This document shows, in pieces, positions 1 to 47,008 of a stretch of DNA of 64,000 nucleotides (position 1 is its first letter; the number at the start of each line of letters is the position of its first letter). The translations under genes and the position numbers were made by a program. The notes under the pieces are model-generated. The model had not been told where the DNA came from and did not search any database. It saw only the letters and a program-made list of their open reading frames with translations. Source of the stretch: Leptolyngbya sp. NIES-3755 (GTDB taxonomy: Bacteria; Cyanobacteriota; Cyanobacteriia; Leptolyngbyales; Leptolyngbyaceae); NCBI GenBank assembly GCA_001548435.1, contig AP017308.1, positions 3,233,030-3,297,029 on the forward strand, written 5' to 3'.

Positions 1-1437
1 CATCAATTCCCGCTGAGACAAGCCCCGCAATACGAGATCCTGACCTTGCCAGCGAGCTTCGATCAGTCCCGTATCAGCGAGCGATCGCCATCTTGGATCA
101 TGCGTAATTGCATCCGGTAATGTAATCGTGACAACCGTTCCAAACTCGGTTAATTCCCCTTCGTAAGTGGTATCTGGGGGTGCAGGTTGCAGGAATGTTT
201 CCCCGATCGGTAATTCAACTAAGCTTCCCGATGCGGGTGAATGCAGATGATAGCGATTGTGCAATTCATCTAATCCGGTCAAGTCTGCGAGATAGTTCGG
301 ATCGCCGTGAACAAAGATGACGTGCTGTGGACGTAAATTGTGAATGAATTGCGTTGTACTGGCTCCATCACAATGCTGAGCTAATACATACGTTTCGATA
401 TCGTACTCTGGTGCAATCTCGATCAAGCCTTCTTCTAAATGATGCGGGAGTAGAATCAGCCAGGGTTCTGGGCTATCTTCGCAAAATTCTTGCCAATCGA
501 TCGAGAAATCCGTCAGCACTACACAAGGTGATTCACTTACGAGCGATCGCTGTTCTGGATGCAATCTTCGGACTCTTGGACGCACTCGATCGTCCCAAAA
601 TAACGATTGATGTTTCGCAAAATTCTGAACTGAAGCGGGTAGATGCGGTAATAGTTCCAAATACGCATCACAACCAGAGGCGACTGTTCCATCAACCCAA
701 ATATCAAGATCCCGTCCAGTGAATAAATGGTGACTTCGGAGCAACATTAAGAGTTCTTGTCCGAGTCCGACCATTGGAAGCGGGAGGAGAATGGATTGTC
801 GATCGCTGAGTGCTCGACTAATTCTTTCCGCAATCTGATTTTCTTGCTGTCTTCGATGTGGAAATCTCGCGGTTCCGTAAGTTCCTTCCACAATTACGAC
901 ATCTGGACGCAATCCGCGCAATTCTTCTAATCGCAAGCCTTCAACTAATCGCGAATTGGATAAAAAGAAATCTCCGGTGTAAAGAATCGAATACGATCGA
1001 CCTTCTCGCGGTGTGTAAGTTAAAAGAATTGCAGCCGCACCTGGAAGATGACCTGCGGGAAACAGTTCAGCCGTCAGACCATCCTGAAACTCAACAGGCG
1101 ATCGCCACGGAAGCGCATGAACAAACTGAGGAATCCGTCCCGGTTCATCAAGCCAATTCAGCGGTAAAAGCTGCGTTGTTACTTCACTCGCATAAATCGG
1201 CAACTGCGGAAATGTGCGATGCAAACTGAGCAATCCTTGAGCATGATCCGAATGGGCATGACTGCACAGCACAACATCTGCGGGCGCAGACAGTTCTGAA
1301 CCTTCATCACCTGAAAGCGCAGACAAATCCGACAGCCCACAATCCAGCAGGATTCGGTAAGGACCCATCCGAACCAGAAGGCAAACTCCTTCATCGCTGT
1401 GTCCTGAACCGTAAGGGAAACACTCCAATTGCGTCAC
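1..1437 (-). CDS. Beta-CASP metallo-beta-lactamase RNA-processing nuclease, cut off at window edge
   Basis: 479 residues are visible and the stop lies beyond base 1. The metal-binding motif HAHSDH is at residues 60-65, followed by a GHLPGA histidine block, a YTGDF aspartate segment and, late in the protein, a histidine in IFVHGDP. This arrangement is that of beta-CASP/CPSF-type metallo-beta-lactamases, which cleave RNA with two zinc ions. The start is GTG: an in-frame TAG lies 12 bases upstream of it and AGGGTGGA serves as ribosome-binding site. The upstream neighbour on this strand is the small NdhP-like gene. The family is clear; the exact RNA target cannot be told. Confidence 0.88.
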   Translation of the reverse strand, partial: MTQLECFPYGSGHSDEGVCLLVRMGPYRILLDCGLSDLSALSGDEGSELSAPADVVLCSHAHSDHAQGLLSLHRTFPQLPIYASEVTTQLLPLNWLDEPGRIPQFVHALPWRSPVEFQDGLTAELFPAGHLPGAAAILLTYTPREGRSYSILYTGDFFLSNSRLVEGLRLEELRGLRPDVVIVEGTYGTARFPHRRQQENQIAERISRALSDRQSILLPLPMVGLGQELLMLLRSHHLFTGRDLDIWVDGTVASGCDAYLELLPHLPASVQNFAKHQSLFWDDRVRPRVRRLHPEQRSLVSESPCVVLTDFSIDWQEFCEDSPEPWLILLPHHLEEGLIEIAPEYDIETYVLAQHCDGASTTQFIHNLRPQHVIFVHGDPNYLADLTGLDELHNRYHLHSPASGSLVELPIGETFLQPAPPDTTYEGELTEFGTVVTITLPDAITHDPRWRSLADTGLIEARWQGQDLVLRGLSQRELM

Positions 1438-1536
1438 GAATCCACCCTAGTGAAACTCAGAATTCATCCAAACCGAATTCGGATTTCGAGGATGGGGAAT
1501 TCAGTCTACCTCGATTTCCGCATTCGAGGGTCTATT

Positions 1537-1659
1537 TTAGTGCGCGGAACCGTTGCCATGATAGTTATCGGTATCATAAAAACCATTGCGCGTTCCGAAG
1601 AATAAACAAGCGACGGTGAAAACGCCAGACAGTACGAGAAGAACGAGTTTTACATCCAT
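1537..1659 (-). CDS. ndhP: 40-residue single-pass membrane peptide, probable NDH-1 subunit NdhP
   Basis: The peptide starts MDVKLVLLVLSGVFTVACLF, one hydrophobic helix, and ends in a polar tail GTRNGFYDTDNYHGNGSAH. This length, single N-terminal helix and RNGFYDTD...GNGSAH tail fit my recollection of cyanobacterial NdhP, a small subunit that stabilises the large photosynthetic NDH-1 complex in the thylakoid membrane. An AAAAAGG stretch about 10 bases upstream of the ATG can act as ribosome-binding site. It stands alone, 99 bases upstream of the beta-CASP gene. The assignment is from memory of the family, not from an alignment; another small photosynthetic membrane subunit is the alternative. 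Confidence 0.6.
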   Translation of the reverse strand: MDVKLVLLVLSGVFTVACLFFGTRNGFYDTDNYHGNGSAH

Positions 1660-1867
1660 AACTGACTACCTTTTTGATTCCAGTGTACAAGCGCGACAAT
1701 ACGAACTGATGCTACAAATCTTGAACAATCCTAAAGCCGGATTGCTATTAGGTTAAAAAATCACAGATTGATCTTAGATTCTCCCAAGGGTAGAAGTAAC
1801 AGTGCTTTTGCTTTGTCAAAAGTTAGATAAAGATTCGCGATCGTGCTGTCAAAGCGATCGCACTACT

Positions 1868-2353
1868 TCATTGAGGTTTGATGAGTTGACCTCGATCGGT
1901 AAATCTCACAGATTTAATTCTCAGTGCTGGATTCTGCGTCAAGGTTCGACGCACACTGCCAAACAATGCTAACTGTTCGCAATTTGCTAAAGAAGTCAGC
2001 GATCGACGTGCATTCGGAATCGGACGAAAATCAACGGTTGCGACTCCTGATTTCACTCGCACTCGATAGCCCGCCACATCTAGACTTTCGCTATTGGCTT
2101 TCTCTAACGTTTTCGCGATCGCTTGTGTCACAGGTTGATTTGCTGGAACCGCTGCTTTGGTTGCCACAAATCGATTGCACTGATTATCTAGCTGAAAAAC
2201 ATTAACCGCGATCGTCTTTCCTTTAGGTTTAGGAGACGGAGTTGGAGACGCTGCCATCGGAGAAGGAGACACTTCGATCCGAATCGGTTCGGGAGAGCGA
2301 CAGCCGCTCAGTATAAAAAAGACCAAATTGAAAATGAGAAACCCTCGAAGCAT
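1868..2353 (-). CDS. GerMN-domain lipoprotein
   Basis: 161 residues. The N-terminus is a lipoprotein signal (hydrophobic stretch, then the lipobox LSGC at about residues 15-18), followed by a Pro/Ser-rich linker to about residue 45. The rest matches the GerMN (sporulation and germination) fold: a beta strand after the linker, the helix VTQAIAKTLEKAN, the pattern GVATVDF, and a final strand IKSVRFTDRGQ. In cyanobacteria these are envelope-anchored proteins of unsettled function. It is flanked by non-coding DNA on both sides and divergent from mgtE. Placement in the family is fairly safe; no specific role can be given. Confidence 0.75.
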   Translation of the reverse strand: MLRGFLIFNLVFFILSGCRSPEPIRIEVSPSPMAASPTPSPKPKGKTIAVNVFQLDNQCNRFVATKAAVPANQPVTQAIAKTLEKANSESLDVAGYRVRVKSGVATVDFRPIPNARRSLTSLANCEQLALFGSVRRTLTQNPALRIKSVRFTDRGQLIKPQ

Positions 2354-21215: not shown

Positions 21216-22085
21216 ATGAGTGTTCTGATTCCTGGAAGTCAGCTTTGGAAGTGGCGATCGACCGCGAAACATCTGTCGATCGCTCATGGCATTTCCCCAA
21301 ACGAAGTCGATTGGCTCTTGCAAGAATTTGCAGGAATCGATCGACTTTTTTTACGGTTACAACCCGATCACGCGATCGAATCGAAGGTGTCGCTTTCTGA
21401 TCTCGATCAAGCTTGGCAAAACCGAATTGAACAACGAACTCCGATTCAGTATTTGGCGGGCATTGCTCCTTGGCGAAATTTTGAATTAAAAGTGGCTCCT
21501 GGAGTTTTGATTCCGCGACCAGAAACAGAATTATTGATTGATTTCGCGATCGCTCAAGATCCGATTCTGAAGTCCGGACATTGGGTCGATTTGGGCACAG
21601 GAAGTGGCGCGATCGCGATCGGAGTTGCGCTATCTTTGCCAAATGCGATCGTTCATGCTGTCGATCAAAGTGAAGATGCTTTGAAAATTGCCCGATCGAA
21701 TGCTGAATTGCTCAATGCCAAGGTTCAGTTTTATCAAGGAAATTGGTTTGAACCGATCGGACATTTAAAGCGATCGCTGAGCGGTGTGGTTTCCAATCCG
21801 CCTTATATCCCGTCTCAAACGGTTTTAGAACTTGATCCTGAAGTGAGACTGCACGAGCCACATTTAGCTCTAGATGGCGGTTCAGATGGATTAGACAGCA
21901 TTCGCCATTTAGTTGAAACTGCTCCAGACTATCTAATTTCAGGTGGCGTTTGGATGGTGGAAATGATGATGGGACAAGCAGAAGAAGTTGCCGCATTACT
22001 TTCGGCTCAGGGAAGCTACGATCGAATTACAATCCAAAAAGACCTCGCTGGCATTGAACGATTCGCGATCGCGTACCGAAAATAA
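21216..22085 (+). CDS. prmC: Peptide-chain release factor glutamine methyltransferase
   Basis: 289 residues. It methylates the GGQ glutamine of release factors RF1/RF2 with S-adenosylmethionine. An N-terminal helical domain (1-85) precedes the Rossmann methyltransferase: VDLGTGSGAIAIG (SAM site, about 125-137), AVDQSEDALKIA, and the catalytic SNPPYIPS. LIPRPETELLIDFA is the typical link. The length is standard. It is six bases after tic22 and five bases before a DUF427 gene, so the three are probably one operon although only the layout supports that. Confidence 0.95.
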   Translation: MSVLIPGSQLWKWRSTAKHLSIAHGISPNEVDWLLQEFAGIDRLFLRLQPDHAIESKVSLSDLDQAWQNRIEQRTPIQYLAGIAPWRNFELKVAPGVLIPRPETELLIDFAIAQDPILKSGHWVDLGTGSGAIAIGVALSLPNAIVHAVDQSEDALKIARSNAELLNAKVQFYQGNWFEPIGHLKRSLSGVVSNPPYIPSQTVLELDPEVRLHEPHLALDGGSDGLDSIRHLVETAPDYLISGGVWMVEMMMGQAEEVAALLSAQGSYDRITIQKDLAGIERFAIAYRK

Positions 22086-22089
22086 TTTT

Positions 22090-22584
22090 ATGCGTCCTAC
22101 TCCTATCCCGCCTCAACCCGGACAAGAATCCGTCTGGGATTATCCGCGCCCTCCTCGCTTGGAACCTGTGAATCAGCGAATTCAGATTATTTTTAATGAA
22201 GTGACGATCGTAGATACTGAAAAAGCGATGCGGGTTCTCGAAACGAGTCATCCACCGACTTATTACATTCCGCCTGAAGATATCAAGCAAGAGTATTTGA
22301 TTCCCTCTAGTCGATCGACTTTTTGCGAATGGAAAGGTCAGGGAAGTTATTACAGCGTAAAAGTCGGGGAGAAAATTGCGACCGATGTGGGTTGGTACTA
22401 TAGCAATCCGACTCCGGACTTTAGGGCGATGCAAAATTATGTCGCGTTTTATGCGGCTCCAATGGATGCTTGTTATGTGGATGGCGAAAAGGTGATACCG
22501 CAGCCTGGACAGTTCTATGGCGGTTGGATTACCAGCGATGTGGTTGGTCCATTTAAGGGTGAAGTTGGCTCTTGGGGGTGGTGA
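22090..22584 (+). CDS. DUF427-domain protein
   Basis: 164 residues from the ATG at 22090, five bases after prmC. It shows the DUF427 layout: FNEVTIVDTEKAMRVLETSH, PPTYYIPPEDIKQEYL, then FCEWKGQGSYYSVKVG with the conserved tryptophan, VAFYAAPMDACYVDGEKV, and a glycine/tryptophan-rich end GQFYGGWITSD...GSWGW. These small beta-barrel proteins are widespread and uncharacterised. A longer frame reaching back into prmC exists but has no reason to be used. A large perfect palindrome lies 34 bases past the stop and may help end transcription. Confidence 0.85.
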   Translation: MRPTPIPPQPGQESVWDYPRPPRLEPVNQRIQIIFNEVTIVDTEKAMRVLETSHPPTYYIPPEDIKQEYLIPSSRSTFCEWKGQGSYYSVKVGEKIATDVGWYYSNPTPDFRAMQNYVAFYAAPMDACYVDGEKVIPQPGQFYGGWITSDVVGPFKGEVGSWGW

Positions 22585-22617
22585 TTAGGTGTGATTCGCT
22601 GCGTTTTGGGTGGGTTC

Positions 22618-22655
22618 GCCCCCTAAATCCCCCAAATTTGGGGGATTTAGGGGGC
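22618..22655. repeat. 38-bp perfect palindromic repeat of the CCCCCTAAATCCCCC type
   Basis: Two 19-base arms, starting GCCCCCTAAATCCCCC and ending GGGGGATTTAGGGGGC, meet without a spacer. It lies between the DUF427 gene and the convergent ABC permease gene, where it could stop transcription from both sides. The same unit, in degenerate form, occurs twice inside egtB (25880-25914 and 26185-26220). Confidence 0.95.
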
Positions 22656-22697
22656 ATTAGCCGATTTAATCGAAGCTAATTTTTCATGGAACTAACG

Positions 22698-23594
22698 TTA
22701 AATTAAATCTTCTCCGGTCGATCGTTGAACCGCTAACCGCACGATCGACAACATCAAAATGATCAAAAACATCACTAGCCCGATCGTACAGGCATAGCTA
22801 ATTTCCAATTTCGTAAATGCTTGCTCATACACATAAAACACGATCGTTTTCGAGCTATTCAACGGACCGCCCTGAGTCATAATGAAAATCTCTTCAAACA
22901 CTTTGGTGGCTGAAATCGCAGAAATCACAGCAACCAAAAATAGATAAGGCTTCATTAGCGGAATCGTAATATCCAAGTGCTTGCGGAGTCCGTCAGAACC
23001 ATCGATCGAGGCAGCTTCATACAAATCGGCTGGAATCGATTGCAATCCCGCCAGATAAATCACCATGTAGTAGCCCAACCCTTTCCAAATCGTCACGACC
23101 ATGACGCTAAAGAGAGCAAGATTTGGATCAGTCAGCCACGGAACACCCTCAAAGCCGATCGCTCTTAAAAATTGATTCAGCAATCCGTTATCCGAGTACA
23201 GCCATTTCCAGGCAATTCCCGCCACGACCATCGAAATAATCACAGGCGTATAGTATGCCACCCGAAACCAGCGAATTCCACGCAACTTCTGATTGACGAG
23301 AATTGCTAAGGCAAGGGGCGCGATCGCTAAAACCGGAACGACGCACACCAAATAAAGCAGCGTATTTCGTAATGTTTGCCAAAAGACTGGATCGCGACTC
23401 AACCGCTGAAAATTCTGCCAACCGATCCACTCCGGTTCACCGATCAAGTCGTAACGAGTGAAGCTCAGATAAAACGCTTGCAGGGCTGGATAAAATACGG
23501 TGAGTCCCAACACGATCAAAGCGGGCAACAGAAACAGATAAGGCGTAAGCTGCCGCTGGATCGGATACCCGCTTTTCAGGATTGACTTATACAT
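22698..23594 (-). CDS. Sugar ABC transporter permease (MalF/UgpA type)
   Basis: 298 residues, six membrane helices. It begins with a short basic tail and the helix LTPYLFLLPALIVLGLTVFY, and contains the cytoplasmic EAA loop EAASIDGSDGLRKHLDITIP (about 205-225), where the nucleotide-binding subunit docks. The family imports sugars, polyols or glucosylglycerol-like solutes. No binding protein, second permease or ATPase lies nearby, so its partners must be elsewhere on the chromosome, which is common for cyanobacterial sugar uptake systems. A substrate cannot be read from the sequence. Confidence 0.9.
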   Translation of the reverse strand: MYKSILKSGYPIQRQLTPYLFLLPALIVLGLTVFYPALQAFYLSFTRYDLIGEPEWIGWQNFQRLSRDPVFWQTLRNTLLYLVCVVPVLAIAPLALAILVNQKLRGIRWFRVAYYTPVIISMVVAGIAWKWLYSDNGLLNQFLRAIGFEGVPWLTDPNLALFSVMVVTIWKGLGYYMVIYLAGLQSIPADLYEAASIDGSDGLRKHLDITIPLMKPYLFLVAVISAISATKVFEEIFIMTQGGPLNSSKTIVFYVYEQAFTKLEISYACTIGLVMFLIILMLSIVRLAVQRSTGEDLI

Positions 23595-23630
23595 CGGAAG
23601 TGTCGTTGAAAATCACTTCACACTGTACTA

Positions 23631-24233
23631 CTAATCGATTTCCTCTGCTTCAACTCGACGAATCGATCGACGAGCGGGCAACATCTGAGATCGGCGACGA
23701 TTCGATAAGTACCCCGGATATTCATCGTGAACAACCTCGATCGTGCGGGAGGGTCGCTGCTGTTTCGCAAAAAGCACAAACATGCCAACGAGCGCAATTC
23801 CGCCACCAAAAGTCAGAATCACACCGCCCAACATCCAGAGCAGATTCGAGAAAACGGGATTATTCTCGATCGAGGAATTCGCGGGCTTCTGTGGATTCGC
23901 TAATGCAGCCTTGTTCTGAGCATTCAGCGTTTCGATCAGGGCTTGCTGACTTTGAAGCTGAGTTTTAAGCTGCTCGGTTTGAATGCGCTGCTGTTCGACC
24001 AATGCTCTCAATTGCTCGGTTTCAGCGCGTTGCTTATCAGTATCGATTCCGGTCGTCGTGGGGGCAGCCGTAGGAACAGGCACACCCGGTTGGACAGAAT
24101 AGCCGTAGTTGGGAAGAGGTTGAGCGGGAGAAAGCATGGGGGTATTCGTACCGCCGACTCCTCCTCTGAGCAAAATCACAGCCGCTAGTCCTGCGAGTGC
24201 TGCTCCTCCTAAAAATGACGTTGTTTCACTCAT
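23631..24233 (-). CDS. Membrane protein with two helices and a coiled coil
   Basis: 200 residues. A short N-terminal hydrophobic segment GGAALAGLAAVILLRGG is followed by a proline/threonine linker, then a glutamine-rich coiled coil (about 65-115: QRAETEQLRALVEQQRIQTE, QLKTQLQSQQALIETLNAQN). A second, longer membrane helix LLWMLGGVILTFGGGIALVG is at about 130-155, and the tail is strongly basic (SNRRRSQMLPARRSIRR). I know no function. It stands between the permease and the egt operon terminator, 36 bases upstream of the permease, and may be transcribed with it. Confidence 0.72.
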   Translation of the reverse strand: MSETTSFLGGAALAGLAAVILLRGGVGGTNTPMLSPAQPLPNYGYSVQPGVPVPTAAPTTTGIDTDKQRAETEQLRALVEQQRIQTEQLKTQLQSQQALIETLNAQNKAALANPQKPANSSIENNPVFSNLLWMLGGVILTFGGGIALVGMFVLFAKQQRPSRTIEVVHDEYPGYLSNRRRSQMLPARRSIRRVEAEEID

Positions 24234-24393
24234 CTCCCCTTCACCTTCATGCTGGATTGCAACGCGAATGTTCTCCTAAACCGTATTCAGGCAATTGTGA
24301 CTCAATCCAGGACTTTCCGATCGTTTCAGTGATTCCACTAATATTCAAGATCAGATCTTCCGGTTTGTCCATATCAGTTTATATAGTTTTTTC

Positions 24394-24437
24394 AAAAAAA
24401 GGGCAGTTTCTAACAAATTTAAGGATTAGAAATGCCC
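24394..24437 (-). terminator. Terminator of the egtCBD operon
   Basis: On the minus strand GGGCA-TTTCTAA pairs with TTAGAAA-C-TGCCC (12 pairs, one bulge), followed by seven T residues. It lies about 65 bases after the egtD stop. Confidence 0.88.
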
Positions 24438-24503
24438 TGTTTTGCAAAGCGCTGGACGCAATTTAGAGTGCCCAAGGTTGAATCAAACTCGACTTTTTCA
24501 ATT

Positions 24504-25505
24504 TTAGGCACGTTGACAAAGTAAAACGGCAAAGGCGGATTGCGAATCTGTCCAAACCTGAATGCAGTTGAGTTGTTTTTCTGTCAACAGCTTTTTCATT
24601 TGATCGAGGTCAAATTTCCGCGAGATTTCACTTAGGATCGTTTCTCCTTCGGCAAATTCGACGGTTAAATTTAATGCTTGGAGATGCACAATTTGCGATC
24701 GCAAACTCCGCAGGTGCATTTCAATTTGTCGCTCAGTTTCGTTGTAAATTGCAATGTGCTGAAACTGCGTTAAATCAAAATCTCCCTGAAATCGCTGGTT
24801 CAAATGACGCAACATATTTAAGTTAAATTCAGCCGTGATTCCTCGTCGATCGTTATATGCCGCTTCGAGTTGTTCCGTCGATTTGTGCAAATCAATTCCG
24901 AGTAGAAAATATTCTTTCGATCTCAGTGCATGGGTGATTCGATCGAGAAAAATATCGCATTCTTCCGGGTTCAAATTCCCCAACGTACTGCCGATAAAGC
25001 CAATCATGCGGCTCGAAAGATGCGTTTTCGGTAATTTCTCTAGTGCGAGTTCATAAGTTCCCACGAGTCCGTATACTTCAAGTTCCGGGTAATCACGCAA
25101 GAGACTGTGAGCACTACTTTCGAGAATTCCAGCACTGACATCGATCGGGCAATAGACGAGCGGATAACCAGACGATCGATACGCATCCAATAAAATCCGC
25201 GTCTTGGTCGAGTTGCCGCTCCCCAGTTCAACCAGTTCACAAGCTCCGGTGATTTGAGCAATTTCAGGCGCACAGGATCTGAGAATTTCGGTCTCAGTGC
25301 GAGTGAGATAGTACTCCGGAAGCTCGGTGATTTGTTCAAACAATTGGGAACCTCGATCGTCATAAAAATATCGAGGCGGTAGGGTTTTCGGGGTTTGGCT
25401 CAATCCGAGAACCACATCACTACCGGGATGCAATTCATCTTCGGATGGAGTTGAACGATCGATTAAATAAGTCAAATGAACACGGTCTTGAATCCTTTGA
25501 ACCAC
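24504..25505 (-). CDS. egtD: L-histidine N-alpha-methyltransferase EgtD
   Basis: 333 residues from a GTG. It trimethylates histidine to hercynine with three SAM, the first step of ergothioneine synthesis. LPPRYFYDDRGSQLFEQITE and LPEYYLTRTETEIL form the conserved N-terminal region, ELVELGSGNSTKTR is the SAM loop, and FIGSTLGNLNPEE carries the asparagine of the histidine site. The GTG start is favoured by GAGGAA six bases upstream and by the two-base gap to the egtB stop; a longer frame would run 94 bases into egtB. It is the last gene of the egtC-egtB-egtD operon. Confidence 0.93.
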   Translation of the reverse strand: MVQRIQDRVHLTYLIDRSTPSEDELHPGSDVVLGLSQTPKTLPPRYFYDDRGSQLFEQITELPEYYLTRTETEILRSCAPEIAQITGACELVELGSGNSTKTRILLDAYRSSGYPLVYCPIDVSAGILESSAHSLLRDYPELEVYGLVGTYELALEKLPKTHLSSRMIGFIGSTLGNLNPEECDIFLDRITHALRSKEYFLLGIDLHKSTEQLEAAYNDRRGITAEFNLNMLRHLNQRFQGDFDLTQFQHIAIYNETERQIEMHLRSLRSQIVHLQALNLTVEFAEGETILSEISRKFDLDQMKKLLTEKQLNCIQVWTDSQSAFAVLLCQRA

Positions 25506-25507
25506 AG

Positions 25508-26680
25508 CTAATTCCTCACACCAGAAACACAGCGAAACCCTGAAAAGATTTCTCGGACGTGCGGATAATACCAGTTTCGGAAGGTGTTTCGCATCGCCCA
25601 AGGAAAAGTGACGGAGCTGCCCCCTTTGAGAACTCGATGAGCACGATCGAAGTAAGTTTGGGAATAGCCTGGATAGGGATAGCTTTCAAAGTTGGGATAA
25701 GCTTCAAACCAAGTCGTTGTCCATTGCCAAACTTCACCGAGCATATTTTGGAATTGGGCGGCTTTTTCCCATTCGGCTTCGGTTGGTAGTCGTTTTCCTA
25801 CAAATTTTGTGTAAGCATCCGCCTCATACCAACTCACACCACAAACGGGAGAATCTTCGCTGCGGTGGGGATGGGTTGTGCCCCCTAAATCCCCCATTCT
25901 GGGAGACTTTGAAGAGTGGGGATAGTATAGAGGATGTTGGATTGCGTTTTCTTGAACCCAGTTCCATCCTGCATCTGACCACCATTGCGGGTTTTGGTAG
26001 CCTCCCGCCTCAATGAACGATCGATAGTCTGCATTTGTCACAGGATATCGATCGATCCAATACTCTTCTAAATAAACTTCATGCGGCGGACGCTCATTAT
26101 CCTGAGCCTCGATCGCATCGCTTCCCTGAACAGACGAACCCGCCGGAATCAAAACCATTTCCCCCCGATCCTGAAACTCTCTCGCTTCAAAGTCCCCCAC
26201 TCGTGGGGGATTTAGGGGGCTTCCACCCGCCCCCCGCAACTCCAATAACGCAAGCACGATCGACAGGGTTTCCGCATGTTGGCATTCATGTTGCAGCAAC
26301 CATTTCCACAATCGTTCCTGCTGATCTAAAGGCGCGATCGCTAAATAATCAAAGACTTTCGATCGCACTGTTTCCAAATAGTCCAACACAACCGGAATCT
26401 CAGGCAATCGAACGCGATCGCACTTCGGCATTCCATCCTGAGCAAACAAGCGATGATACTCAGGAAATACAGGCGGATACCCTGCACATCGCTGCAAAAT
26501 CCAGAGCGCTTCAGTATAAGCAATATGTCCCACATGCCACCCGATCGGACTGAAATCAGGGTGGGCTTGAGTGCAAAACGCTTCATAATCCAGCGATTGA
26601 ATCAGAGAGAGCGTTTTCGATCGACACTGCTGCATTGAGTGTCGCACCTCAGATCGGAGTGATATCTGGCTCAAAGTCAT
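25508..26680 (-). CDS. egtB: Sulfoxide synthase EgtB with two repeat-derived inserts
   Basis: 390 residues. The N-terminal DinB-type domain has the iron-binding GWHVGH (48-53) and the HECQHAE motif (131-137); the C-terminal formylglycine-generating-enzyme fold has GEMVLIPAGSS, YWIDRYPVTN, VCGVSWYEADAY, RLPTEAEWEKAA, GEVWQWTTTW and SGFRCV. The non-haem iron enzyme joins hercynine to a cysteine-derived thiol and oxidises it. Two inserts, about residues 154-166 (SPLNPPRVGDFEA) and 256-267 (SKSPRMGDLGG), are translated dispersed repeats. The ATG at 26680 lies inside egtC; an ATG at 26635 has a better ribosome-binding site (GAGGTG) but drops conserved helix. Confidence 0.92.
   Translation of the reverse strand: MTLSQISLRSEVRHSMQQCRSKTLSLIQSLDYEAFCTQAHPDFSPIGWHVGHIAYTEALWILQRCAGYPPVFPEYHRLFAQDGMPKCDRVRLPEIPVVLDYLETVRSKVFDYLAIAPLDQQERLWKWLLQHECQHAETLSIVLALLELRGAGGSPLNPPRVGDFEAREFQDRGEMVLIPAGSSVQGSDAIEAQDNERPPHEVYLEEYWIDRYPVTNADYRSFIEAGGYQNPQWWSDAGWNWVQENAIQHPLYYPHSSKSPRMGDLGGTTHPHRSEDSPVCGVSWYEADAYTKFVGKRLPTEAEWEKAAQFQNMLGEVWQWTTTWFEAYPNFESYPYPGYSQTYFDRAHRVLKGGSSVTFPWAMRNTFRNWYYPHVREIFSGFRCVSGVRN
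25880..25914 (-). repeat. Degenerate CCCCCTAAATCCCCC palindrome translated within egtB
   Basis: The first 17 bases equal the arm of the perfect palindrome at 22618; the other half has decayed to TGGGAGACTTTGAAG. Read in the coding direction it starts CTTCAAAGTC and ends GATTTAGGGGGC. It contributes the peptide KSPRMGDLGG in frame. Confidence 0.9.
26185..26220 (+). repeat. Second CCCCCTAAATCCCCC-type repeat within egtB, opposite orientation
   Basis: On the plus strand it starts CTTCAAAGTCCCCCACTCG and ends TGGGGGATTTAGGGGGC, nearly identical to the minus strand of the copy at 25880-25914, so the two copies are inverted relative to each other. It encodes SPLNPPRVGDFEA in the linker between the two EgtB domains. 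Confidence 0.92.
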
Positions 26681-27431
26681 GATCAACGGTCAACAAACAG
26701 CGATCGGGCAATGCTTTCCACTTTCCCTCAAAGATCGGTTCTGAGGCAATCAGTACAGAGTCAGGAAAATTTGGATCATTCTGCAAATAATAAAGTGTTG
26801 GAGTCTGAACGCCTTGAGCATACCGAGAAGCGACCAATTGATAGCCATCACTCAAAATCAGATTTGCAGAAAACGGAACTTGATGTTTTTCAGCCAATTC
26901 CGTCAGCACCTTTAAAGTTCGGTGCAACGCATCGGTGAGACTAGCACTAGATTCCAATTCATCAATCACAGTCGCAAAGATATGTTCCGAATCGGTCAAT
27001 CCTTGCACTAATTGATACGCCAGATCACTCAAGCGATCGCGCATCGGACGATACAACGTTTGGCGAAAGTCTTTAATAAATCCGTTGTGCAATCCCATAA
27101 TCGACGCATATTGAAACGGCTGAGTGTTGCTTAAATCCGTTGCCAATCCTGCTGTTGCACTCCGAACATTTGCCAACACACAGCCCGATTCGACATACCG
27201 ACTCAAACTCTGCAAATTCACATCGTTCCAAATCGGTAAAGTGCTGCGATAGGTAAACGGTTCAGCTTCACGAGTGGCATGATACCAACCGACTCCAAAG
27301 CCATCCGCATTCATCGTACCTGCCGTCATTTCTTTAGGCTCATAGCTTTGCACGACGAGAGAATGATCCGATTGAGAAGTTAAGCGATCGAGCAACACAG
27401 GTCGCCCTAGATAACCAAGCAAACGACACAT
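26649..27431 (-). CDS. egtC: Ergothioneine biosynthesis glutamine-amidohydrolase EgtC
   Basis: 260 residues. A class-II glutamine amidotransferase fold begins with the nucleophile Cys2 (MCRLLGYLGRP), then GTMNADGFGVGWY, LANVRSATAG and MGLHNGFIKDF. EgtC removes the gamma-glutamyl group from gamma-glutamyl-hercynylcysteine sulfoxide. Its presence implies that EgtB here uses gamma-glutamylcysteine, as in mycobacteria, although genes for EgtA and the lyase EgtE are not in the window. It is the first gene of the operon, and its 3' end overlaps egtB by 32 bases if egtB starts at 26680. Confidence 0.93.
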   Translation of the reverse strand: MCRLLGYLGRPVLLDRLTSQSDHSLVVQSYEPKEMTAGTMNADGFGVGWYHATREAEPFTYRSTLPIWNDVNLQSLSRYVESGCVLANVRSATAGLATDLSNTQPFQYASIMGLHNGFIKDFRQTLYRPMRDRLSDLAYQLVQGLTDSEHIFATVIDELESSASLTDALHRTLKVLTELAEKHQVPFSANLILSDGYQLVASRYAQGVQTPTLYYLQNDPNFPDSVLIASEPIFEGKWKALPDRCLLTVDHDFEPDITPI

Positions 27432-27480
27432 AGATAATAGTAAGGAAGCGAACTGATCAAATGTGACACAAATTCTCAGG

Positions 27481-27861
27481 TTATGGTTTCAACCGCCAAG
27501 CAGAGATCGCTAAACAAGCCCAACCGACCATAAATGCCGTTCCACCGATCGGAGCGACTGCACCCAGAATCTTTACACCAGAAAGTGAAAGTGCATAGAG
27601 ACTGCCTGAAAACAACACAATTCCTATGATGAATGCAATTCCTGAAGCGGTTAATAGTGGATTTGCAAAATTAGTTTGGGTGATGAAAAAAGCAACTAAG
27701 ATTAATGCGATCGCGTGATACATCTGATACCGCGCTCCCGTCTCAAAAATTTCTAAAGCTCGATCGTCTAATTTTGCTCTCAAGGCATGAGTCGCGAATG
27801 CACCCCCCGCAACTGAAATTCCCGCCAGAATTGCGCCTGCTGATAAGAAGAATTGCGCCAT
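27481..27861 (-). CDS. DUF423 membrane protein
   Basis: 126 residues from the ATG at 27861. Four hydrophobic segments make up nearly the whole protein: FFLSAGAILAGISVAGGAFA, YHAIALILVAFFITQ, ASGIAFIIGIVLFSGSLYAL and IGGTAFMVGWACLAISAW. The motif GAFATHALRAKLDDRALEIF and FETGARYQMYHAIAL is typical of DUF423 (YgdD). The function is unknown. A frame 28 codons longer exists, but its N-terminus is charged and unlike the family, and TTGGAAA stands before the chosen ATG. It is 49 bases upstream of egtC and could be the first gene of that operon. Confidence 0.85.
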   Translation of the reverse strand: MAQFFLSAGAILAGISVAGGAFATHALRAKLDDRALEIFETGARYQMYHAIALILVAFFITQTNFANPLLTASGIAFIIGIVLFSGSLYALSLSGVKILGAVAPIGGTAFMVGWACLAISAWRLKP

Positions 27862-45235: not shown

Positions 45236-47008
45236 TTAGAACCGGAAAGTAGCTCGAACTGCACCGACCACGATCGGATCGTTGGCGGCGTTGTGGTTGG
45301 AATTGAAGATTACGAAGATGCCAGGAGTGAGGTCGAGAAACGAGTTCAATCTGGCGCGGTAGAATGCTTCTAAATGCAGTGCGGTGTCAGGTTGTCCGCC
45401 TCTGCTCCCTGTATCACTGAACCGAGGAAAATTATAACCATCCGGTAAGGTACTGTTTGTGATCTTAGGCGGTTGCCCAAAGAGAATTCCTCCGAGATTT
45501 CCGGGTACGAATAGATCAGGAAACGCGGAAAAGACCATCCAGTTTGTGGTTTGGACAGAACCAGAGATGTCGATCGCTTTCGAGCTTGTCCATCCACCCC
45601 AACCGCCGATCGTGAATTTCGGATTTAATCGCCAAGCGAGTGTTCCCCCGATCGCATGAGTGGTAAATGCAGAATTCGTCGGCGCAAAAGGTGAGAGCAG
45701 TTGCGAATCTCCGATACCCGTTCCAAGGAAGCCATCCGGCGATCGAGAAAATAAATAGTGAATGCCAATGTCGATCGTATTCGTGGGCGCGATCGTCAAT
45801 TGTGCTCCTGCGACATATCGACCTCCGACCAATCCACCTGCATTAGAATTCCCTGCAAACGAAGGCAGTTCGGCGCTGTAAAGTCCTTGCAAGCTAAGAC
45901 GTGGATTGATTTGCCAATCGAAACCGACTCCACCGATTCCATTCCCGATCGCTAAGATTGGATTGCGCTGACCGAGTAACGAAAGCGTTCCTTCCCCTGC
46001 ACCTTCTAAGGGATTGATGCCTCGGAAAACATTAGAAGGATTCACGCCAGATGCACCAATCAGAACCCCAAAATTATTTGCAACTGGGAATCGATAGGAT
46101 AAGTCACTGATGAAAACCTGATTCTCTAGATCGGATTCATAAGAAAGCCGCCCCATGTTGGTGAATAGGTTGGGAGCATTCGATCGAACATTTCCTGTTT
46201 GCAGCGTTGTTAAGAGCAAATCCCGTCCACTAAACGAAGTCGCCAGTGAAATCTGCACATTATTCGTTAAAGTTGGCTTCGTTTCTGCTTGACGCTCTGG
46301 AGTGCCATCTCTTGGGAAAAGATCAATATCCGCTTTGTTGCTGAATTGAGTCGATACGATCGCTTGTCCAACTAATCGAGTTGTCGTTGAAAACTGATTC
46401 TTTTCTAAAGTCGCAGTTCGAGCTTCTAAGTTATCAACTCGTCCTTTCACTTCTGCAAGCTCAGTCGAGAATTCAGCCTGTAGTTTTTGCAGTGCATCCA
46501 AATCTTGGCGAGTTACAGCATTCGATCGCTGAGCGTTAATCAATTCTTGAACTCGATCGAGACAAGCATTCAATCCTGCTGCAAATTCGTATCGAGTCAA
46601 TGCTCGATTTCCTCGAAAGGTTTGGTCTGGATAACCTGCAATACAGCCATACCGTTCTACTAAACTTTGAAGTGCCTGAAATGCCCAATCGGTCGGATGC
46701 ACATCTGACAATTGAGAAACAGAAGTGACCTGTTCCATTCCGTCTGAGCTAAATTCTGGAACGGCTGAGGGCAGAGGTTCTATAGTGAGTCGATCGAGAT
46801 CGGGTTGAACTTCTTTAGTGTCAGATTTTACAGTGCTAAATTCTGGCGATCGCTCAGTTTCTGGAGCGGTCACGGTGGTGCTAATTGGAGGAGCGACGGA
46901 CTGAACGGAGTTCTGAAGCGTCTTCTTTTGGGCAATTAACGGGGGCTGTTGGGGGGGAAGCGCGGTGCCTTCGGCTAAGCGAAAGCTTTCCGCTCCAATG
47001 TCGGTCAT
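45236..47008 (-). CDS. SLH-OprB outer-membrane porin, no visible signal peptide
   Basis: 590 residues. A long N-terminal stretch to about 95 leads to an SLH domain (VTSVSQLSDVHPTDWAFQAL, YGCIAGYPDQTFRGNRALTR), a coiled coil (about 155-190, LQAEFSTELAEVKGRVDNLE) and the OprB beta barrel to the end (final AVRATFRF). This is the cyanobacterial porin used for ions, including iron. The odd point is the start MTDIGAESFRLAEGTALPPQ, which has no hydrophobic signal; an in-frame stop lies a few codons upstream. A frameshift, sequencing error or a start in another frame may hide it. Confidence 0.85.
   Translation of the reverse strand: MTDIGAESFRLAEGTALPPQQPPLIAQKKTLQNSVQSVAPPISTTVTAPETERSPEFSTVKSDTKEVQPDLDRLTIEPLPSAVPEFSSDGMEQVTSVSQLSDVHPTDWAFQALQSLVERYGCIAGYPDQTFRGNRALTRYEFAAGLNACLDRVQELINAQRSNAVTRQDLDALQKLQAEFSTELAEVKGRVDNLEARTATLEKNQFSTTTRLVGQAIVSTQFSNKADIDLFPRDGTPERQAETKPTLTNNVQISLATSFSGRDLLLTTLQTGNVRSNAPNLFTNMGRLSYESDLENQVFISDLSYRFPVANNFGVLIGASGVNPSNVFRGINPLEGAGEGTLSLLGQRNPILAIGNGIGGVGFDWQINPRLSLQGLYSAELPSFAGNSNAGGLVGGRYVAGAQLTIAPTNTIDIGIHYLFSRSPDGFLGTGIGDSQLLSPFAPTNSAFTTHAIGGTLAWRLNPKFTIGGWGGWTSSKAIDISGSVQTTNWMVFSAFPDLFVPGNLGGILFGQPPKITNSTLPDGYNFPRFSDTGSRGGQPDTALHLEAFYRARLNSFLDLTPGIFVIFNSNHNAANDPIVVGAVRATFRF

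Follow-up and report, generated by a model that had tools for sequence, protein, structure and literature searches.

Palindromic repeats accepted in frame by proteins are best known from Rickettsia, where reduced genomes and a host-bound life offer a ready excuse for them. In cyanobacteria, the SDR of Nostoc (Elhai et al. 2008) are reportedly very small hairpin repeats of 21-27 nt, often located in minitransposons and nested in one another. The Rickettsia palindromic elements (RPEs) are mobile palindromic repeats that lie in frame in conserved genes, with a guanylate kinase case in which the protein is both made and active (PMC2229807, PMC10969869); PMC2229807 gives RPEs a length of 105-146 bp and terminal inverted repeats (TIRs). 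In REPINs, as described by Bertels and Rainey 2011 (PMC3116915), inverted pairs of short palindromes fold into one hairpin and single units are a minority. Finally, in PMC3733652, intragenic GTAG/CGTC REPs are recorded from many species, often contributing 20-30 aa and sometimes occurring twice per ORF, and cyanobacterial REP families exist.

Here the host is a cyanobacterium with a 6.8-Mb genome, Leptolyngbya sp. NIES-3755, and the enzymes that carry the inserts are under purifying selection. The analysis started from a 64-kb stretch of its DNA (hereafter the window), in which two repeat copies lie inside egtB. We consider it highly probable that the repeat represents a mobile element of the genus, palindromic, REPIN-like and non-autonomous, of which selection leaves in-frame copies in loops and linkers, and that egtB acquired its copies in a two-step history.

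Architecture and genomic distribution of the repeat

Exact copies of the 15-mer CCCCCTAAATCCCCC occur in the window at 22619 (+), 22640 (-), 25881 (+) and 26205 (-), with a further match at three mismatches at 46941; shuffled windows contained 0.58 matches on average, and none of 100 shuffles reached five. The complete genome holds 85 copies, all on one contig (C1), against an independent-base estimate of 0.009; the 15-mer is identical when read backwards, so that a backwards control of these genome counts is uninformative. Copy numbers per genome range from 4 to 328 within the genus and stand at 439 in another genus of the family, with at least one copy in 38 of 58 genomes.

The architecture of the element was read from the 85 exact 15-mers and their flanks. 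Its unit, GCCCCCTAAATCCCCCA-nnn-TGGGGGACTTTGA, is a hairpin of about 34 nt (stem AAA/TCCCCCA...TGGGGGA/TTT, the loop separating the C run from the G run usually having 5 or 6 nt) accompanied by an arm of about 25-40 nt. In the long form, two units face each other over about 35 nt to give an element of about 103 bp, and in the short form the two outer halves are joined into a palindrome of 37-38 bp. The arms outside the units are of several types and mutually inverted. Two copies of a 30-nt arm pattern, at genome positions 1130680 and 2202667, lie away from any census core and may be empty or decayed elements.

Scoring with a covariance model built from the unit yielded 104 unit matches at no fewer than 57 sites of the genome, a lower bound because 150 of the 3121 first-look candidates were scored. 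These comprise 38 long pairs (87-169 bp), all 38 facing inward, 7 short palindromes and 12 single units, some of the latter with a visible decayed partner (3905204 and 2696318). The two full pairs that were folded each give one long hairpin, at -76.9 kcal/mol (z -9.0) for the copy in cbiD and -73.3 kcal/mol (z -8.5) for that in the glycosyltransferase gene GT4. We propose that the units, mostly inward pairs, would form such a hairpin, and that the short palindromes and single units most likely arose from pairs by deletion.

One of the seven short forms is the perfect 38-bp intergenic palindrome that the sequence-only reading had reported at 22618, confirmed here at 22618..22655 (no strand assigned) between convergent genes. 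From the arm listing, its left arm (ATTCGCTGCGTTTTGGGTGGGTTC, 22594..22617, plus strand), of a type that by eye matches other sites, pairs in the fold with the inverted right arm (ATTAGCCGATTTAATCGAAGCTAAT, 22656..22680, minus strand), the palindrome and its arms together reaching -51.2 kcal/mol (z -6.2). Positions 22000-27500 of the window gave no Rfam match at the gathering threshold.

Most sites (52 of the 57) are intergenic. Where scored ORFs are present on both sides (n=51), the flanking genes are convergent in 23 cases, co-directional in 25 and divergent in 3. The genome-wide count thus leaves five sites inside reading frames, 'in frame' partly by construction, since gene-breaking copies are invisible to the open-frame test, and these fall in four genes: egtB (twice), cbiD (TIGR00312, a full pair), the GT4 glycosyltransferase gene and an ORF of 653 aa. 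ORFs of at least 250 aa cover 72% of the window, so that unselected insertion would place most copies in genes; taking this window value of 0.72 as the coding fraction, the probability of five or fewer intragenic sites is 1.5e-23. Selection would remove most genic copies, and the survivors would be those that keep an open frame and whose peptide falls in a tolerant loop or linker.

With the commonest loop (ATTCT) the unit is free of stops in four of the six frames, a count valid for that loop, since 6 nt in the loop displace the second half. Among the peptides encoded in frame are SPLNPP..GDFE, PPKSP..GDFE and KSP..GDLGG, and pair forms end in GGFRG. The repeat occurs as putative protein sequence in several frames; the sequence-only reading had supposed that it can be accepted in either orientation.

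The two inserts of egtB

The egtB gene (25508..26686, minus strand; 392 aa), characterized by its ORF, the TIGR03440 profile, its neighbours, domains and dN/dS, contains two in-frame repeat units in a frame that is open throughout, and is flanked by egtD and egtC. Both the in-frame position and the opposite orientation of the copies (25881, plus; 26205, minus), claimed from the window alone, hold. The description of the copies as degenerate palindromes does not: each is a normal single unit ending in GACTTTGA, unit 2 with one stem change. The element itself is larger, a REPIN-like pair with arms. The insert of a single unit measures about 60 nt. Unit 1 (26187..26220, minus strand, exact location) reads (S)PLNPPRVGDF(E) on the minus strand, matches the covariance model at genome position 3259216 with 55.9 bits and is situated between the DinB_2 (residues 19-140) and FGE-sulfatase (176-311) domains found by domain search, at a domain linker as predicted. 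Unit 2 (GCCCCCTAAATCCCCCATTCTGGGAGACTTTGA, 25880..25912, plus strand, exact location), read as SKSPRMGDLGG on the minus strand and matched at 3258909 with 55.1 bits, lies inside the FGE domain at a place of length variation among relatives; the alignment with PDB 4x8b has a gap of 5 residues there. As RNA, unit 1 surpasses its shuffles in folding (z -3.3), which the region of unit 2 does not (z -0.6; 53 of 200 shuffles as good).

The arm of unit 2 (25856..25879, plus strand; TTCGCTGCGG... type) encodes TTHPHRSE on the minus strand, is missing from empty alleles and probably belongs to insert 2. The orthologous arms of two congeners, G006 and G001, match arms of intergenic copies with scores of 33 and 38, a level that none of 200 shuffles attains. 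In the same arm comparison, the egtB arms of the own genome (G000) match themselves and the unit-1 arm of G006 matches a G000 egtB arm, so that the matches of these arms are not independent. The unit-1 arms of G007 and G001 are equalled in score by 2 of 200 shuffles, the right arm of the insert in G002 by 98 of 200.

An alignment of 30 EgtB sequences shows the inserts to be missing in most rows, and in none of the 30 are the same peptides seen where the DNA repeat is missing. Insert 2 is present in three (G000, G006 and G001), its site being filled in three of the seven genus genomes with the region, the own genome included, and empty in four. Insert 1, for which the SPLN columns are visible in all 30 rows, is present in four (G000, G006, G005 and G007), and decayed in a fifth (G001, where part of the hairpin is gone); a sixth, G002, has a different insert in the same linker, a full pair that is read in another frame and whose left arm belongs to the TTCGCTGCG type. 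In the egtB of G004 the core is missing, and no more than a remnant of an arm can be left (equalled in score by 2 of 200 shuffles). By the position of egtB, G001 corresponds to Phormidium tanganyikae FI6-MK23, G007 to Cyanobacteria bacterium FACHB-63 and G004 to Leptolyngbya sp. Prado105. The unit-1 hairpin of G007 (locus L064) in turn contains a nested in-frame stretch of about 45 bp, the ends of which (HLLQVGEPAQRSGS, also given as CCACGCCACTTGCTTCAAGTCGGGGAACCCGCCCAACGTAGTGGC) are inverted; it may represent another repeat family, and a 19-nt part of it has no occurrence in the window.

The genus tree, (((G000,(G006,G003)),G001),(G005,G007)),(G004,G002), was computed after removal of gap columns and has two inner nodes at 49% and 51% support. 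On this tree insert 1 appears as the older of the two. Because insert 1 occurs in five genus genomes (one copy decayed) and insert 2 in three of these, the distribution points to two separate events: unit 1 would have entered egtB in the ancestor of these five, and unit 2 later, in the ancestor of the three. It is extremely improbable that a single event instead placed both units, as the two termini of an element that spans or has captured part of egtB. Being oppositely oriented, they resemble the ends of a pair, inward as in 38 of 38 long pairs, and they measure 341 bp end to end; the longest other pair, however, is 169 bp, inward orientation arises by chance in 1 of 4 cases, and the sequence between the units is ordinary EgtB common to the outgroups. 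Capture of a segment in a single event is rejected on the alleles of G005 and G007, which have unit 1 without unit 2 and which it would explain through an exact loss of unit 2 in their line.

The sequence-only reading had named proof of a broken gene as one possible refutation of its claim, and it is very unlikely that egtB is a decaying gene from which the inserts have simply not been removed. Such decay would be in keeping with the TIGR03440 score of the product (335.5 bits against a curated cut-off of 360), with a segment of about 50 aa (the TTPV..YP..S..G..D region) that is missing in EgtB of the genus and present in most other aligned cyanobacterial EgtB, with a serine in G000 where aligned congeners and most others have tryptophan, and with a TGA listed inside the G006 match. 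The low score may, however, stem from the missing segment, the shorter form being common to the seven genomes of the genus read at egtB, and the TGA is the end of the match, the open frame reaching query residue 390. The frame is open in 7/7 of these genomes, the HxxxH motif and a large set of invariant residues are kept, egtD and egtC adjoin, and five within-genus pairs give dN/dS values of 0.12-0.16, indicating that purifying selection acts on EgtB; few sequences underlie these ratios, the trees and the AlphaFold model alike. The gene is not visibly broken. The AlphaFold2 model (13 sequences) has a mean pLDDT of 57.5 and places the insert regions in segments below 50; since residues 313-392 are likewise below 50, low pLDDT at the inserts is not counted as evidence. 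The insert peptides are presumably translated, and the inserts themselves are presumably neutral.

Occupancy of cbiD, GT4 and other genes

In cbiD, G000 and G001 have a full pair in the same loop, G005 has a single unit there and G004 an apparent remnant; in G006, G003, G007, G002 and 17 other aligned relatives the loop has no such insert. CbiD dN/dS values are 0.09 and 0.11. Occupancy does not follow the tree in a simple way, and one has to suppose that the element was either lost or inserted more than once. Alleles that carry an insert are not mutual closest relatives, which makes several rounds of filling or emptying of the loop probable. In the tree from cbiD alone, G003 groups with G000 instead of with G006. 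A single spreading cbiD allele was considered and rejected, a tree grouping the four insert-bearing alleles lying 236 log units below the free tree; transfer of short tracts is compatible with the data. The spacer between the cbiD units is the most diverged part, with 0 of 362 windows more diverged.

The GT4 insert is an 84-bp pair located between the two domains of the glycosyltransferase and bounded by the arms ACCTAATCGATCGG / CCGATCAATCAGGT. Arms included, it is confined to the own genome, one of eight in the genus, and the site is empty in 7/7 congeners and two further relatives, which we read as the clearest sign of recent movement and which bears out the claim that the repeat moves.

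The 653-aa ORF (L036; ORF 1-1959, minus strand) contains an in-frame single unit, is repetitive (SNSQLHKQFGE...) and has no Pfam or NCBIfam match at E 0.001.

ORF-spanning copies with coding signal on both sides number two in G006 (27 regions) and five in G001 (about 73-76 regions), the regions representing 27 of 28 grouped sites in G006 and 73 of 91 in G001, among 41 of 68 and 109 of 153 matches listed. The filter used, applied to 55 G000 sites, missed egtB unit 2 (one side at 0.09) and the cbiD copy of G001, and returned one antisense ORF over egtB. The genes concerned encode MenC o-succinylbenzoate synthase (G006 and G001, at the same place), a CheA-like kinase (G006) and, in G001, CobN, CobB/CbiA, an aldehyde dehydrogenase and EgtB, to which cbiD is added from outside the filter; comparison with repeat-free orthologues covers EgtB and cbiD among these congener cases. 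Three of the genes with in-frame copies, for CbiD, CobN and CobB/CbiA (L020, L242 and L291), are cobalamin genes, too few to speak of a preference.

Taken together, the congeners show the same protein loops empty, with one unit, with a pair, with a nested insert and with a decayed one, and this range makes the cost of an insert, and any use it may have, directly testable in EgtB and CbiD.

Loop inversion, mobilization and relation to known systems

Between copies with similar arms the loop is frequently found inverted. Among 90 unit pairs with at least 80% identical 40-nt arms, the loop is inverted in 18, the same in 32 and otherwise different in 40; near-identical copies of the own genome with reverse-complemented loops include 988427 versus 1568089 and 586111 versus 5840647. 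The same inversion is seen between species at EgtB site 2, where the loop (25896-25900) is AGAATG, encoding Arg-Met, in the own genome and ATTCTG, encoding Ile-Leu, in G006 and G001. The simplest reading of these comparisons is that the hairpin forms and may at times be re-copied or resolved in the opposite sense. In each of nine comparisons within the genus, the unit core differs at a lower rate per nucleotide than the remainder of its gene, the contrast being strong in some (windows equally conserved: 2/364, 6/340, 26/347 and 29/329) and weak in others (61/280, 90/328, 119/366, 131/339 and 165/349). A conserved core could reflect constraint on the hairpin instead of neutrality. It is conceivable, albeit unlikely, that the units, open in four of six frames, serve as a recurring source of linker peptides, in enzyme loops (the EgtB linker, the CbiD loop) that are filled, trimmed, nested and emptied across the one genus, and that hairpin flipping in vivo varies the protein. 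If so, the flip of a DNA hairpin would change two EgtB residues in one step and constitute a source of protein variation.

New copies would be inserted by an enzyme acting in trans. We regard it as doubtful that the element is a true REP/REPIN moved as single-stranded hairpin DNA by a RAYT (Y1 transposase) encoded elsewhere. The inward pairs that form one hairpin, the minority of single units, the mainly extragenic location and the few sites between divergent genes are all REP/REPIN traits, the loop flips between copies with near-identical arms suggest that hairpins form, and Y1_Tnp genes are present in seven of the eight genus genomes. Nevertheless, the repeat is found at none of the 23 Y1_Tnp loci of these eight genomes (short core patterns, within up to about 1.5 kb, four loci being shortened by contig ends), G005 has 174 copies of the 15-mer and no Y1_Tnp match, and the GTAG/CGTC tag is missing at the ends of the unit consensus GCCCCCTAAATCCCCCAnnnTGGGGGACTTTGA. 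With neither RAYT linkage nor the tag found, we do not file the element as REP/REPIN proper.

The arms make it a tentative possibility that the element is instead a MITE of an IS family with terminal inverted repeats, the palindromic core being a passenger on several MITE backbones. In the own genome, 27 of 29 matches to the 30-nt arm pattern (at most 3 mismatches) and 9 of 10 matches to a second arm type adjoin census sites, mostly as inverted pairs around the core; many paired sites thus have terminal inverted repeats, of more than one arm type, and the GT4 insert is bounded by its arms. On the other hand, single units, including those within genes such as egtB, are one-armed and have no such termini, searches with the two arm patterns found no IS-sized pair of arms in the own genome, and a comparison of a few flanks by eye brought no evident target-site duplication to light.

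Whichever enzyme would move it, the repeat we interpret as a REPIN-like non-autonomous element belongs to the short palindromic mobile repeats that proteins accept in frame. The resemblance to the Rickettsia palindromic elements, drawn already from the window alone, is upheld: the inserts of egtB, cbiD and GT4 are in frame in conserved genes and have empty orthologues, a likeness of behaviour. RPEs are longer and have TIRs, whereas egtB received single units of about 60 nt and the element at large forms REPIN-like pairs. With the SDR of Nostoc it shares the character of a small cyanobacterial hairpin repeat. In the literature searched, mostly without subscription papers, the motif (the 15-mer or its inner 13-mer, either strand) is printed in one paper, which deals with a human gene. 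With REPINs the element has in common the architecture of pairs with a minority of single units, and differs from them in having no RAYT at the 23 loci and several types of outer arm. Its intragenic position recalls the GTAG/CGTC REPs, although the unit here has neither end tag. The section of PMC3733652 on intragenic REPs mostly lists ORFs; here, orthologues date the insertions and separate the events. In-frame inserts are already known from other bacteria, and what the present element adds to them is a cyanobacterial case with a readable history and clear independent events.
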